64,000 bases of DNA, taken from the NCBI RefSeq assembly GCF_000149955.1, contig NC_030996.1, positions 1,505,467 to 1,569,466 on the forward strand. Direction: 5' to 3'. Origin of the DNA: Fusarium oxysporum f. sp. lycopersici 4287. Lineage: Eukaryota; Ascomycota; Sordariomycetes; Hypocreales; Nectriaceae. Shown piece by piece: positions 39,139 to 49,944 of this stretch (positions are counted from its first letter, which is position 1; the number at the start of each line of letters is the position of its first letter). The position numbers were made by a program, and so were the translations under genes. The notes under the pieces are model-generated. The model did no database searches. It saw nothing but the letters and a program-made list of their open reading frames with translations, and was not told the DNA's origin.

Positions 39139-40984
39139 CTATGCTAGCCAAAACCAGAAGCGCTCGAGAGCGTTACGTGGCTTTGGATCCTCCCAGATCT
39201 CCTCCAGTGCATCGATGGCGTCTTTGCCACTTGTTATATCAGCTTCATTTGACGGGATCCATTTCGTCTTCTTGATCAACTTCCATGCAATAAAAAGGAC
39301 GGCGAAGATGAGAGTGTTGACGTACGCCGCGAAGAAGTCTGGAAATAGTTGTTAGTGCTGTAGTTGGATAGAGTCTGAATAACACGCAAAAGAGTTGATT
39401 GGGCGAGAATAAAGCTTACCGCTGATGTTCCATCTTCCTGACATGAACACGCTGAAACCGTTGAAAATGATCAACATTGAGAAGTAGATGAGAGCGGCCC
39501 AAGCTGCCCAAGGTTGGAAATAGCTTTTCAGGTGGAGAGTGTCGCGATCAACTCCTTGCGCCTTTAAGGCAGCATGAAAACGGATGTATGCCAAGCATAC
39601 ACAGGACCAGGTGAACAGTGATGAAATAGTAACGAGGTTTTGAAACCACTGGAATGCTTGAGCAGCACCGCCATCCTTTTGGACTGAAAGATAGGTCAGA
39701 AGGCCCATTGCGCTGGTAACCAGGACAGCAATCCAGGGTACTCCTTGTTTGTTGCACTTGAGGAAGAAGGCTGGAGCTTGTTTATTCACAGCCAATGCGT
39801 ACAAATAACGGGATCCACTGTAAATAAAGGCATTGGCAGATGATGAAGCCGACGAAAGGATAACAGCATTAATGATAGACGGAAGGACTGAGATGCCGAC
39901 GTTCTGGACTCCGATCACCCAGGGTGAGGCTGCGGCATTAGAAGTACCGCTTGCCTGGGCTGATAATAGGCGAGGATCGTTGGAAGCAACTAAAATACCC
40001 ACTGCAAGGGCACCAAGAACGTAGAAGAAGATAATGCGCCAGAAGATGCGACGGACAGCTTTAGGGATGTTCTTGCGAGGGTTCTCAGCTTCACCGGCAG
40101 CAACAGCAACCATTTCCACGCCACCAAAGGAAAAGGCAGCGTTAATCAATGTGGTAAAAAAGCCCAAGAAGCGACCAAGATCACCCTCAGCAAGATATTC
40201 CTTCATCGGCCCTGGATTCTTCCAGTAGGTGAAGCCTAGCCGGCGACTCTGGGGGTTACCTCCAAGCATAACGATGAACGTCATGATTAGAAGGCCCACA
40301 ATTGTGATGACCTTGATCGAGGCGAAACAGAACTCTGCCTCGCCATAAATAGAGACGGCGAAGATATTGAGTAGTACCACGACAACGAGGATGATAGTAA
40401 TCCAAACAGCCACGTTGACGCCCTCAGCCCCTTTCCAGTATCCGATTATGAGGGAAGCAGCTGATAATTCTGCACAGAGGGTGATCGCTGCTGAGTACCA
40501 TACATTCCAACCAACCGCGAATCCCAAGGCTCCATCCACATACCTGGCACAGAACTGGGGAAGGGCGCCAGGCAAAGGGAGCCAAGTCGCCATTTCACCA
40601 AGGCTCATCATCATGACAAAGATGAAGATTCCGGTTATGGTGTAACCAAGAAGGAGCGAGAGCGGGCCGGCCTTTGTCAATGCACTGCCGATACCAAGAA
40701 ATAGCCCCGTGCCAATGGAGCCTCCGATGGCGATGAACTGAATGTGGCGAGACTTTAACCTATGTAATCGTCTCGTTAGCAGTGAAGCAAGATGTTATAG
40801 GCACGCGAGGGCGTGTTTGAACCAGACAAACATGCAGAACAGCCGTAAGTTTGGGAGATGCGGCATACCCTCTATTCAGTTCACCATGCTGGTGCAATAA
40901 CTCTCCTTGAGTAAGTGGATGCTCCGTCTCAGAATGGCATCCCTCATTCTTTTCACCCTCCTCGATATTGATGTCTGTGGTCAT
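39139..40984 (-). CDS. Amino-acid permease (APC superfamily)
   Basis: Exons 40984-40869, 40759-39420 and 39338-39139 (introns of 109 and 81 bp) give 551 residues. Signatures of the fungal amino-acid permease family are visible: the hydrophilic N-terminus ending HGELNRGLKSRHIQFIAIGG, SIGTGLFLGIGSAL, the conserved MSLGEMATWLP, the NVWYSAAITLCAELSA region, FGGVEMVAVAAGEAENPRK, and SSANAFIYSGSRYLYALA. Twelve hydrophobic segments are expected. The C-terminal tail (KKTKWIPSNEADITSGKDAI...) is typical. The ATG at 40984 is chosen because the longer frame opens only with TTG. It probably imports amino acids at the plasma membrane; specificity is not visible. Confidence 0.9.
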
Positions 40985-41624: not shown

Positions 41625-42443
41625 TTAGTTAATGTCACCCTTGCCTCCCGAGTCACAATGCTTGAAGCTGACTTCCGGTCCACAGTAAGCCTTGTGGTCA
41701 AAGTTGCTCGCCGGTCCAATGAGGAGGTATCCGTGCCAAGTTCCACCATGGGTTAGTTCCAAACACTGGGTGCCGCAGATCTTGTGCCCATGGTTCTTGA
41801 TGTGATGCTCGATTGCACCTGCAATGGTTTCCTGTTCAGCAGTCGTGTCACAGTGTCTACCAGTAGACTGCGGTTTCCTTTGTCAGCATCTCCTGCTATA
41901 ATGTAGAACAAGAGGTTCACATACGCGATAGCGGTAGAAAAGGTTGCTGTTCGGACCAGCATGTCCAGTAAAGGTGGAACGGGTCTTGACGTTTGATGCA
42001 TGTTTAATGGCAGCGCCTGAGCGCCATGTTAGCTCAAAATCTACTTAGTTATCTCACACTTACTGATCTGGAGAATTCCGTCCTAAGAAGGGATGTTATA
42101 GGCCTGTCGATATGACCGAGGGGTTTCTTACCTTGATAGCACCTCCGATGATAACGCAATGAGAGGTAATAGTGATGATTCTCTCGCAAACCTTTAGAGA
42201 TATCAGAACTGTAAACAATACACCATGAGATAAACTTACCGTAACGTGTCTGCGCTTCTCGAGGGCAGAGTCCTCAGACTCAAAGTCCTCAAGGTGGTAC
42301 AGCGCCAGAGAATCCGGCATCTTAACGGCCTCATTAACAGCCTCGGTCTCGTTAACGGCCTCGGTCACCTCTGTGGTAGGCATAGAGTAAATAAACAAAG
42401 GCAAGGACATTAAGACGAAGAAGTTCATAAGGGCGGGTTTCAT
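41625..42443 (-). CDS. Secreted Kex2-site Cys-containing protein, unit A
   Basis: Five exons in one frame: 42443-42240, 42191-42132, a 19-nt microexon 42082-42064, 42016-41925 and 41867-41625, giving 205 residues. The start MKPALMNFFVLMSLPLFIYS is a good signal peptide. An acidic propeptide follows and ends in a dibasic EKRR (residues 62-65), a likely Kex2 site. The mature part has seven Cys and the blocks TGHAGPNSNLFYRYR, RHCDTTAEQ, TWHGYLLIGP and CGP. Unit B shares the exon lengths 60/19/92 and these blocks, which validates the model. I do not recognise the family. The first 92 nt overlap another conserved frame (42352-42561). Architecture, not sequence, recalls secreted proproteins such as small effectors or antagonistic peptides; no activity can be claimed. 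Confidence 0.75.
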
Positions 42444-42561
42444 CTTTACTGAGGTAGGCTACGAGATTCGCTGCGAGAAGGACAATGGGAAGAATGTATC
42501 CTGCTGATGCTTGAACAATTTGATCGAGGAAATGAGGGTCGAGTTGAGGTTCTGGAGTCAT
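42352..42561 (-). CDS. 69-residue hydrophobic membrane-protein ORF overlapping unit A
   Basis: An ATG at 42561 opens a 69-codon frame ending at 42352. It begins 118 nt before the ATG of the secreted protein and overlaps it by 92 nt in another frame. Two hydrophobic stretches are visible (GYILPIVLLAANLVAYL and LNVLAFVYLLYAY) and a basic end (HRGDRGR), so a small two-helix membrane protein is likely. The ORF in unit B has exactly the same length and offsets and shares AGYI, NL, KD, LNV, YLL, AY and RGDR. In the overlap this frame is better conserved between units (about 17 of 29 residues) than the secreted frame (about 12 of 29), counted by eye. A TATA-like element 40 nt upstream puts it at the start of the transcript. 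No known family. Confidence 0.6.
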   Translation of the reverse strand: MTPEPQLDPHFLDQIVQASAGYILPIVLLAANLVAYLSKDETRPYELLRLNVLAFVYLLYAYHRGDRGR

Positions 42562-42599
42562 TACTATGATTGAACGTGAGGCCTTGGAAGGGTATCGGT

Positions 42600-42608
42600 C
42601 TTTTATAG
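42600..42608 (-). promoter_or_regulatory. Putative TATA box of unit A
   Basis: On the minus strand TATAAAAG-like sequence lies about 40-47 nt before the ATG of the 69-codon ORF, implying a short leader that includes this ORF. Confidence 0.45.
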
Positions 42609-42634
42609 GTCTTTGATGGGAATTTCGAAGGATT

Positions 42635-42646
42635 TGGTGATATGAC
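42635..42646 (-). promoter_or_regulatory. 12-bp element shared by units A and B (copy A)
   Basis: The 12-mer GTCATATCACCA (minus-strand sense) occurs 74-85 nt before the small-ORF ATG here and 87-98 nt before it in unit B (45227-45238). It is either a conserved promoter element or residual duplication similarity. Confidence 0.4.
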
Positions 42647-44142
42647 GAGAGCAGATGTTGAATGTCAGAAGATTCGATGGGTGAGGGTATCTTCGGCGTG
42701 GAAGTGAGCATGCCGCTTATCCGACCCATGTGAAATGCTATTGGTTCTACAAGAGGCACAGGAACTTACGAGAATTTTGCATGCGCAGAACCAACACACT
42801 TGAACTAAAACCAACAGCGGCTCTATATATGAGGAAGATGCATGCAACTCGGAAGAACGGCATCACCCGCAACAATAAGCGCCACGGTCTCACACACAAT
42901 ATGCTGGCGGATCCGAGCTTTCCACGCGGACTTTAGTGACAGATAGCTGAATCCTCTGGGATGAATTACTGGTTTTTAGCTAACTCTTTGTAATACCAGC
43001 ATAGAGCCCTACAAGTATTAGAGCTCTTGTGGATTCCTCTTTCTTTGTATCGCCTTCGAAACATCCATTGTCAAGACTGTGAATTGAGCTATTTGTAGAA
43101 CTCTGCGAAATGGATTCTCGGACCTTTCTATTTACCGAAAAGCATCAGTCGAAGGATTTTATCCTTGTACTTCTCATATAATTATCTTCATCAAGAGTCA
43201 TGATATGTTGGCTGCAAGCACAATCCTTCGTCTTCTGCGTCTTTCAGTTGGTCATTGAACGACGTTTGATCTTCGATTTGTGCCGAATTGCCGCCTGAAT
43301 AATGATATCGATGATCAGATCTGTCGACAATCCAGAAGAAGTTGCAGTCCATATCGCCTCCTGTTACTACTTTGATGAAACGACGCGCCTGGTCCTAAGG
43401 AATCCCCGAGGGCTCCTTGTTCTTGCAGAAACTGGTGCTTGTGAAAGAAGGATATGGTCGGCACTGTGCAGGATGGATCAGACTTCCTGCCGTGTTGGTT
43501 GCATTATCAAGACAAAGATTCAGCTGTTCAAGGAAATTCCAATCGTCTGCGAGTTACGTTCTAAACCCCAAGACAGTCTCCCTGGCACCGAATTCAATCA
43601 TATCCAAGTCAATGAAGAGCTTCCACAAACCCATCAAACTCGCAGTAGTTACATCCACCGTCAATTTGGACTACGAGAGAAGAGAAAACATAAGTGGCTT
43701 AGAATAAGCTTTTTCCCTCGGCGTCTAGCTAAGGATGTCTAAATACAACCCTAAACTAAATAAGCTCATTCTGCCAAGGTAGTTCTCCTGAACTTTGTAA
43801 GCTACGATGCCATTGGTGCTAAATTCATACAATCCTCTGAGGATGCAACGACTTGATGTTTCTGCGACGCAACTGCGCTGTGACAAGATTCAAGTACCAG
43901 CTAAGTACAATAACCACCACGTCCGGTATGCATGTCATTTGCGGCAGTTATCATTCTCTTGGTTATAATTGATTATATAATTGCAACTACTTGACTTCTT
44001 GCTGCCTATAAGGTTAAATTGACTTCCCGTAATTGCTATCCTGGCCTTTTACTCTTTTCACGGTTGATGGCCCATCGAAATATGTTATAGGTTACCTGCA
44101 GAATCACTGCTCGACTCATCATCTTCAACTAAACTCATTTCT
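42647..44142. other. Spacer between units A and B
   Basis: About 1.5 kb. A plus-strand 146-codon frame (43302-43742, real ATG) lies here, antisense to the units, but it has no recognisable motif, no signal peptide and no conservation I can show, so it is not called as a gene. Confidence 0.4.
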
Positions 44143-45022
44143 CTATAGCTCACGGTCAGCTTGCTGTTCTTTCTCCTTCTCCGCTTCCTCTAAACTTTCC
44201 AAATCCCACATCATGGATACCGGAGTAACAATAAGCTTTGGCCCGCACTCTATTTCGTAGTCAAAGCCCTTGGTCGGTCCAATGAGGAGGTGACCATTCC
44301 AAACGCCAATGTCAGTCAGGTCCAGGCATTCGGTGGTACGAAGTGTTACCCCTTCCTTTTTAATACGGCTTTCGATTGCCCGTTCAATCTCGATCTGTTC
44401 GATGACGGTATCGCAGTGGCCATCATCAGTCTGTTCTACTTTAGCTATCTGACGTGAGGTTAGATGAGAGATGTACCAACCTCATACTGATAGTAGAGCT
44501 CGTTATTTGGACCGGCGTGTCCACTAAAGCGTCCGCATTCTGTTAAACCGACGGCATGCTTGATTTCGAAAGCTAAATATTCAGTTCATATCCGTATTTA
44601 AGTCATGGATCGTCTGCTTGAACTCACTCCAGCGAAGCCATATTATCTTCGATGGATACATTAGAACTCTTCTCACATTCAAGAGACTGCTTTACCTTTA
44701 ATCCCTCCTTCAACTCATGTGATGGCGCAATCGCATCCCATGCACGTCCATATATCTAGAAATCAGCCATGGCTCAGTAAATAAATAGGAACTTGGTATT
44801 ACTCACAGATCTGCGTTTCTCGGGCCGTTGTTCTTCCACGTTGTTTTTCGTCTCTCCGTGTTGAAGCTGTTCCAGTGCATGAAGCAACTCAAGATACATC
44901 TCCTGGTTCACCGCACTTGGTCGGGGACCATTAGCCGAACCTGTCGCCTCTAAGATAGGCTCCAAGCAAATAGAGGTTGGCAAAGACGTTAAGGCCAGTA
45001 AGGTCATAAGCTTTGGATGCAT
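44143..45022 (-). CDS. Secreted Kex2-site Cys-containing protein, unit B
   Basis: Five exons in one frame: 45022-44807, 44755-44696, microexon 44646-44628 (19 nt), 44572-44481 and 44430-44143, giving 224 residues. It has a signal peptide (MHPKLMTLLALTSLPTSICL), a propeptide ending EKRR (residues 68-71) and a mature domain with four Cys. Blocks shared with unit A: SGHAGPNNELYYQYE, GHCDTVIEQ, ECLDLTDIGVWNGHLLIGP and ECGP. The exon 2, 3 and 4 lengths (60, 19, 92 nt) are identical to unit A. Unlike A it ends in a charged helix-like tail (LEEAEKEKEQQADREL). The start overlaps a 69-codon frame (44931-45140). Family unknown; secretion is inferred from the signal peptide and dibasic site. Confidence 0.75.
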
Positions 45023-45140
45023 CTTTGTTGATGTAGGTAATCAGATTCGTGACTATGAGAAGGAGAGGCACGATATACCCGGCTGCTGCCCGGTTGAATC
45101 TGTCGATCGTGCCGGAGTCAAAGGAAATGTTTGGTGACAT
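44931..45140 (-). CDS. 69-residue hydrophobic membrane-protein ORF overlapping unit B
   Basis: An ATG at 45140 opens a 69-codon frame ending at 44931, again 118 nt upstream of, and 92 nt overlapping, the secreted-protein start. Hydrophobic stretches GYIVPLLLIVTNLITYI and LNVFANLYLLGAY flank KDASKAYDLTG; the end is LRGDRFG. Length, offsets, hydrophobic pattern and key residues match the ORF of unit A. The ATG context is weaker (G at -3) than that of the secreted ORF (AAAG before ATG, A at -3, in both units), which would allow leaky scanning to the second start. Function unknown. Confidence 0.6.
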   Translation of the reverse strand: MSPNISFDSGTIDRFNRAAAGYIVPLLLIVTNLITYINKDASKAYDLTGLNVFANLYLLGAYLRGDRFG

Positions 45141-45226: not shown

Positions 45227-45238
45227 TGGTGATATGAC
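45227..45238 (-). promoter_or_regulatory. 12-bp element shared by units A and B (copy B)
   Basis: Second copy of the shared 12-mer, 87-98 nt upstream of the small-ORF ATG of unit B. Confidence 0.4.

Positions 45239-49944
<4,706 letters not shown>

Follow-up and report, generated by a model that had tools for sequence, protein, structure and literature searches.

Do two neighboring genes of Fusarium oxysporum f. sp. lycopersici 4287 each encode two different proteins from overlapping reading frames? The question arises from a 64,000-nucleotide stretch of this genome (61.2 Mb in total), which is part of contig C11 and is termed the window hereafter. It carries two tandemly arranged units, A and B, both on the minus strand, each of which comprises a gene for a secreted protein of the DUF6736 family and a small hydrophobic open reading frame (ORF) that runs into the 5' end of this gene. 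Comparison of the two units with each other and with their Fusarium relatives makes it quite probable that each unit is a dual-coding gene, giving a small membrane protein in addition to the secreted DUF6736 protein. The features of the two units, together with the evidence for each, are as follows (aa, amino acids; nt, nucleotides).

42352..42561, minus strand: small ORF of unit A, 69 aa, predicted two-helix hairpin membrane protein (ORF, homologues, conservation tests, AlphaFold2)
44931..45140, minus strand: small ORF of unit B, 69 aa (ORF, homologues)
41625..42443, minus strand: secreted gene of unit A (exon model, PF20521 match, orthologues)
44143..45022, minus strand: secreted gene of unit B (exon model by eye, PF20521 match)
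42352..42443, minus strand: putative dual-coding overlap of unit A, 92 nt, second helix of the small protein and signal peptide of the secreted protein (conservation tests)
44931..45022, minus strand: putative dual-coding overlap of unit B, 92 nt (conservation tests)
42601..42607, minus strand: TATA-like box of unit A, 46 nt 5' of the small ATG (sequence)

The two units share an identical geometry. In each, the small ORF of 69 codons and a stop begins 118 nt 5' of the secreted ATG (at 42443 in unit A and 45022 in unit B) and overlaps the secreted frame by 92 nt in the +1 frame. These lengths and offsets had been proposed in an earlier sequence-only reading of the locus and proved exact upon re-measurement. 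The small frame of unit A stays open further upstream, where an ATG at 42729 would allow an ORF of 125 aa; the start is nevertheless placed at the shared Met, since unit B and the observed homologues begin at this same residue.

The secreted ORF forms the first of five exons in the gene models of both units, the introns of unit A being located at 42239-42192, 42131-42083, 42063-42017 and 41924-41868. The secreted product of unit A (205 aa) consists of a hydrophobic N-terminus, an LEKRR site and the DUF6736 domain, and that of unit B (224 aa) has a hydrophobic N-terminus, a PEKRR site and a divergent DUF6736 domain. In both, the propeptide ends in EKRR ahead of the mature body, which agrees with the Kex2-type secreted protein proposed at first sight. 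Profile search with the DUF6736/CSS2 C-terminal family PF20521 matched unit A with 149 bits (E=9.5e-44), unit B with 56.4 bits (E=4.2e-15), and a gene on contig C12, the sole further member of the family found in this genome, with 112.1 bits; all three bodies are above the Pfam cut-off of 27 bits. As judged by inspection of the sequence, a putative secretion signal and dibasic Kex2 sites are present in all three proteins. The secreted protein of unit A is nearest to annotated Fusarium oxysporum proteins, with an identity of 86-95% for the four listed, and many of the DUF6736 relatives carry the UniRef label "Secreted protein CSS2 C-terminal". Sequence search of solved structures gave no match.

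Comparison of the two small proteins revealed 31 identical residues out of 69 (45%), with the length, the two hydrophobic stretches and the RGDR motif kept. Within the overlap, a script counted 16/30 identical residues in the small frame against 13/31 in the secreted frame. The earlier claim that the small frame is the better conserved of the two thus stands, whereas the figures counted by eye (17/29 and 12/29) were slightly generous. The nucleotide identity, previously put at about 60%, is 64% in the overlap, compared to 53% in the remaining small ORF, and the best blastn match between the units falls within the small ORF. The differences between A and B are unevenly distributed over the first, second and third small-frame codon positions, with 33/16/39 of 68 codons for the whole ORF (p=0.0002) and 21/9/25 of 38 outside the overlap (p=0.0007). 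For comparison, 57 codons from the last exon of the secreted gene show 24/15/33 differences (p=0.003). The most variable position of the small frame inside the overlap is the third (14/29), which coincides with the second position of the secreted frame.

Simulations were performed separately for the two parts of the small ORF. Where the codons belong to the small frame alone (114 nt following the ATG), none of 10,000 neutral runs combined an open frame with the observed BLOSUM similarity, and 0.67% combined it with the observed identity (14/38). For the overlap, only the secreted frame was placed under selection; five strengths were used, and the runs were started from either sequence. Of those runs that ended with a like secreted identity (just 46 and 5 at the strongest constraint, more elsewhere), 0 to 1.2% showed the observed small-frame conservation. 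Synonymous shuffles of the overlap attained the observed identity in 0, 2, 0 and 33 of 50,000. Judged by the codon pattern, the shuffles and the simulations, the protein of the small frame appears to be under selection, and its conservation is coding-like in both the overlapping and the non-overlapping parts.

Database searches further identified the small frame in other Fusarium proteins. The search with both small proteins returned seven proteins at E<=1 among 12 candidates, one of which (P0001) is unit B's own protein; five of the six homologues beyond the window are exactly 69 aa long. The search with secreted protein A returned 35 proteins at E<=0.01 among 118 candidates, and 21 of these were aligned to exon 1 of unit A. 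Four of the aligned models have small-ORF sequence as their N-terminus: P0012 of F. oxysporum f. sp. phaseoli with about 37 residues, P0020 of F. redolens with about 51 residues, and P0021 of FIESC RH6 and P0026 of F. langsethiae with the sequence through RGDR. When the N-terminus of P0021 was used as the query, three proteins came up among 66 candidates, namely P0021 itself, P0026 and P0044 of F. longipes, the last of which has the small frame without a listed DUF6736 domain. In the FIESC, F. langsethiae and F. longipes models the frame runs on beyond RGDR or its equivalent, and the C-terminus of the small protein may be different in these species. Altogether, annotated proteins from five Fusarium taxa contain all or part of the small frame; scans of bacterial/archaeal and viral contigs with the small-ORF and DUF6736 alignments yielded no relatives.

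The models with small-ORF sequence at the N-terminus bring up a different explanation, namely alternative splicing, by which the small-ORF start would be the true N-terminus of a membrane-anchored DUF6736 isoform and the signal-peptide stretch would be intronic. The four models in question (P0012, P0020, P0021 and P0026) indeed fuse the small-ORF sequence to the DUF6736 body, but they leave the small frame at differing points, as automatic prediction would give. A suitable donor-acceptor pair, 79 nt apart (42449 to 42371), exists in unit A, whereas unit B lacks such a pair under the same donor and acceptor patterns. Moreover, the would-be intron is conserved in the small frame, at 16-21 of 28 residues among the A, B, FIESC and F. 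langsethiae proteins. We therefore regard splicing as an unlikely origin of the second frame.

The second alternative is a regulatory upstream ORF (uORF) that overlaps the main start and damps translation of the secreted protein, with a peptide that is functionless in itself. Use of the TATA-like box of unit A would place the small ORF first on the messenger RNA (mRNA), which is the position of a repressive uORF. However, a repressive uORF needs no amino-acid conservation, and the conserved peptide (45% identity, with the length, the two hydrophobic stretches, RGDR and the codon-position bias) speaks against this explanation, which appears quite improbable. That the second frame is open by accident and alike only via shared ancestry is hardly credible, because the openness alone is cheap (synonymous shuffles keep the overlap open in 38-56%) but leaves the similarity, the codon pattern and the constant-length homologues to be accounted for.

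Returning to the dual-coding model, we examined the secreted frame inside the overlap. Nine of the 21 aligned orthologue models begin with recognizably the same signal peptide. Where just the signal peptide is known, its compatibility with the small frame was compared with that expected under a nucleotide-level null; this null is the stricter of two and is preferred over a looser one. The signal peptide of F. austroamericanum, which differs from that of A in 9 of 24 residues, is small-frame compatible with P 0.003-0.017, and that of unit B gives P 0.016-0.04 under the strict null. Under the looser null, B and F. austroamericanum each have P 0.0007, P0028 has 0.0027, and the remaining five lie at 0.011-0.073. 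In addition, when selection was simulated on the small frame only, the secreted identity was at or below the observed 13/31 in 88-99.6% of runs.

Several points weigh against the dual-coding model. The last simulation suggests, but does not prove, that the secreted frame is also under selection in the overlap. Under the strict compatibility null, the signal peptide of P0028 is borderline (P 0.037-0.057), and those of P0015, P0018 and P0025 are uninformative (P 0.2-0.38). Among the 21 aligned models, six begin 3' of the signal peptide and two (P0025 and P0028) have a diverged one. For the small frame, the codon-position differences inside the overlap (12/7/14 of 29) are non-significant on their own (p=0.15), and the identity outside the overlap, taken alone, is only moderately unusual (P 0.017 by simulation and 0.030 by column shuffles). 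Disruption of the small frame in relatives, named beforehand by the sequence-only reading as a finding that would speak against it, was assessed in part. The assessment covered 11 relatives beyond the window (P0002-P0007, P0012, P0020, P0021, P0026 and P0044), of which P0012 and P0020 carry only part of the frame. Ten of the 11 are undisrupted in the part that they carry, whereas P0007 is altered: it has 64 aa with a changed C-terminus, the small-protein C-terminus being lost. Since the searches return only open frames, this retention is biased upwards and the test is not an unbiased one. P0044 of F. longipes has Asp-Lys at the place of the secreted ATG, which excludes an ATG there, the next in-frame ATG being possible. 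The orthologue tree (22 rows, four of which, P0014, P0019, P0038 and P0042, were left uncut at the N-terminus) resolves neither the position of unit B nor the time of the A/B duplication. Finally, A and B agree at a larger share of positions in the small protein (31/67, 46%) than in the secreted body (51/134, 38%), so that a co-diversifying toxin-immunity pair is not favored; the order is reversed between A and FIESC, with 41/67 for the small protein and 96/140 for the body. The secreted body of unit B was seen to sit on a long branch (1.86) of the tree.

The small protein, described at first simply as hydrophobic, is predicted to be a two-helix hairpin. AlphaFold2 with nine sequences gave helices at residues 9-38 and 44-67, at moderate confidence (mean pLDDT 72.9, pTM 0.52), and the second helix is the one encoded by the overlap. 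Pfam search of the small proteins found no family above the cut-off, the best being Peptidase_M50B for unit A (E=0.075).

How might both starts be used? Reinitiation is excluded, because the small ORF ends 92 nt past the second ATG; two products would therefore need leaky scanning or two transcription starts. As the sequence-only reading had stated, the secreted ATG has A at position -3 in both units; for the small ATG this base is G. Neither unit contains an ATG between the small and secreted starts, and 13 small-frame sequences have no second Met in the residues checked (residues 2-39 only for five of them). The ATG-free spacer lends leaky scanning weak support, because base shuffles of this stretch are likewise ATG-free in 25-30% and the A/B peptide bars an ATG whatever codons are used. 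Taken together with the -3 contexts, it is still weak evidence, which fits leaky scanning as a plausible mechanism. The TATA box reported earlier for unit A is present as a TATA-like box, and neither TATAA nor TATAT occurs within 300 nt 5' of the small ATG of unit B. Over the 120 nt 5' of the small ATG, the in-register identity of the units is 28%, and blastn found one shifted 21-nt match (86%) and one 13-nt match. The 21-nt stretch, around GTCATATCACCA, lies about 74-107 nt 5' of the small ATG in both units (42635-42655 and 45227-45247, minus strand) and is perhaps a shared promoter element in otherwise dissimilar sequence.

We propose that, from one promoter region, the first AUG would give the 69-residue helical-hairpin membrane protein, and the second AUG, 118 nt 3' and in the +1 frame, would give the preproprotein, whose signal peptide would be encoded over the second helix of the hairpin. 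Kex2 processing would then release the body as a secreted protein of the DUF6736 family (CSS2-type, killer-toxin-like). Leaky scanning or alternative transcription starts probably allow the use of both AUGs; the translation of both products, the membrane insertion and the shared promoter are what we infer. If both products are made, a filamentous fungus would here have a conserved pair of overlapping genes, attached to a killer-toxin-linked family. It would also be an unusual way to hold a secreted agent and its partner together. The pair is not annotated as such in the database records examined, and a literature search of titles and abstract openings gave no description of it.

Most likely, the small protein is a partner at work in the membranes of the producer itself. 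That it provides self-protection, guarding the producer from a secreted protein active on membranes, is a tentative hypothesis that we hold at clearly less than even chance; an aid to secretion or processing, or control of the output, would together form a real possibility, though still somewhat short of even. The link to killer toxins runs via the CSS2 literature; a search on the name 'DUF6736' found no paper. In its passages on these proteins, a 2026 review describes CSS2 (YFR020W) as homologous to the Klus killer toxin and raises the possibility of a non-canonical immunity mechanism in the Klus/KHR group (PMC13211469). A paper on the ECOD classification groups CSS2 and YER076C with yeast killer-toxin-like folds, as "Duf3676" (PMC10927120), presumably in error for DUF6736. 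Neither paper, in its passages concerned with the family, speaks of an overlapping frame for a membrane protein (PMC13211469, PMC10927120). Klus and KHR of Saccharomyces resemble the Fusarium proteins in the hydrophobic N-terminus and the dibasic sites; however, a separate membrane ORF is not described in the review's passages on Klus (PMC13211469), and any killing by the Fusarium proteins is putative. A dual-coded membrane partner in the Klus/KHR relatives would make the immunity question directly testable.

Other known systems share single aspects of this arrangement. The hydrophobic peptide of the K2 prepro-toxin, likewise an N-terminal product tied to a secreted killer toxin, is discussed for self-protection in the same review and likened there to the small immunity peptides of bacteriocin systems; it derives from the toxin's own precursor, whereas the Fusarium small protein would be a separate protein in another frame (PMC13211469). 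Dual-coding human SRD5A1 also has close AUGs in different frames on one mRNA, but this is a human gene, and a pairing of secreted and membrane proteins is not mentioned in the opening of the article's abstract (PMC13352861). The linear-plasmid killer elements of Kluyveromyces and Pichia similarly carry a toxin and an immunity protein on one element; there, however, the toxins are anticodon nucleases and the immunity genes are named as separate ORFs (PMC4431711).

The third DUF6736 gene, on contig C12, is a single ORF with EKRR before the body. A hydrophobic ORF lies upstream (L012:5024-5194, minus strand; 56 aa from the nearest upstream ATG), beginning 77 nt 5' of the secreted ATG and overlapping it by 94 nt in another frame than in A and B, with a TATA-like box 61 nt 5' of it. 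This other frame is open in 9.8% of synonymous shuffles and equally hydrophobic in 10% of those. Since the shuffles allow chance, the C12 overlap, which possibly arose in this way, is not counted as evidence. The hydrophobic ORF has no other match in the genome, and its alignment as an A/B-type small protein was not convincing. It is doubtful that the killer-toxin-like DUF6736 genes of Fusarium carry their own immunity protein as a dual-coded hairpin over the toxin signal peptide, with C12 having the same architecture in another frame; if true, recombination could not part toxin from antidote. One further match, on C7 (E=0.012, with two internal stops), was rejected as spurious, for the DUF6736 profile missed it and it lies over a long unrelated ORF.

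As regards the public annotation, the models P0012, P0020, P0021, P0026, P0010, P0013, P0017, P0019 and P0024 look chimeric or begin 3' of the signal peptide, which suggests that the locus is represented by chimeric or truncated models in several of the public Fusarium records. Just 3' of unit A, at 39352-40794 of the window (minus strand), lies a long ORF that we take to resemble an amino-acid permease. The DUF6736 protein P0022 of F. globosum is named 'amino acid transporter AAT family' and is perhaps a fused model from the same neighborhood.

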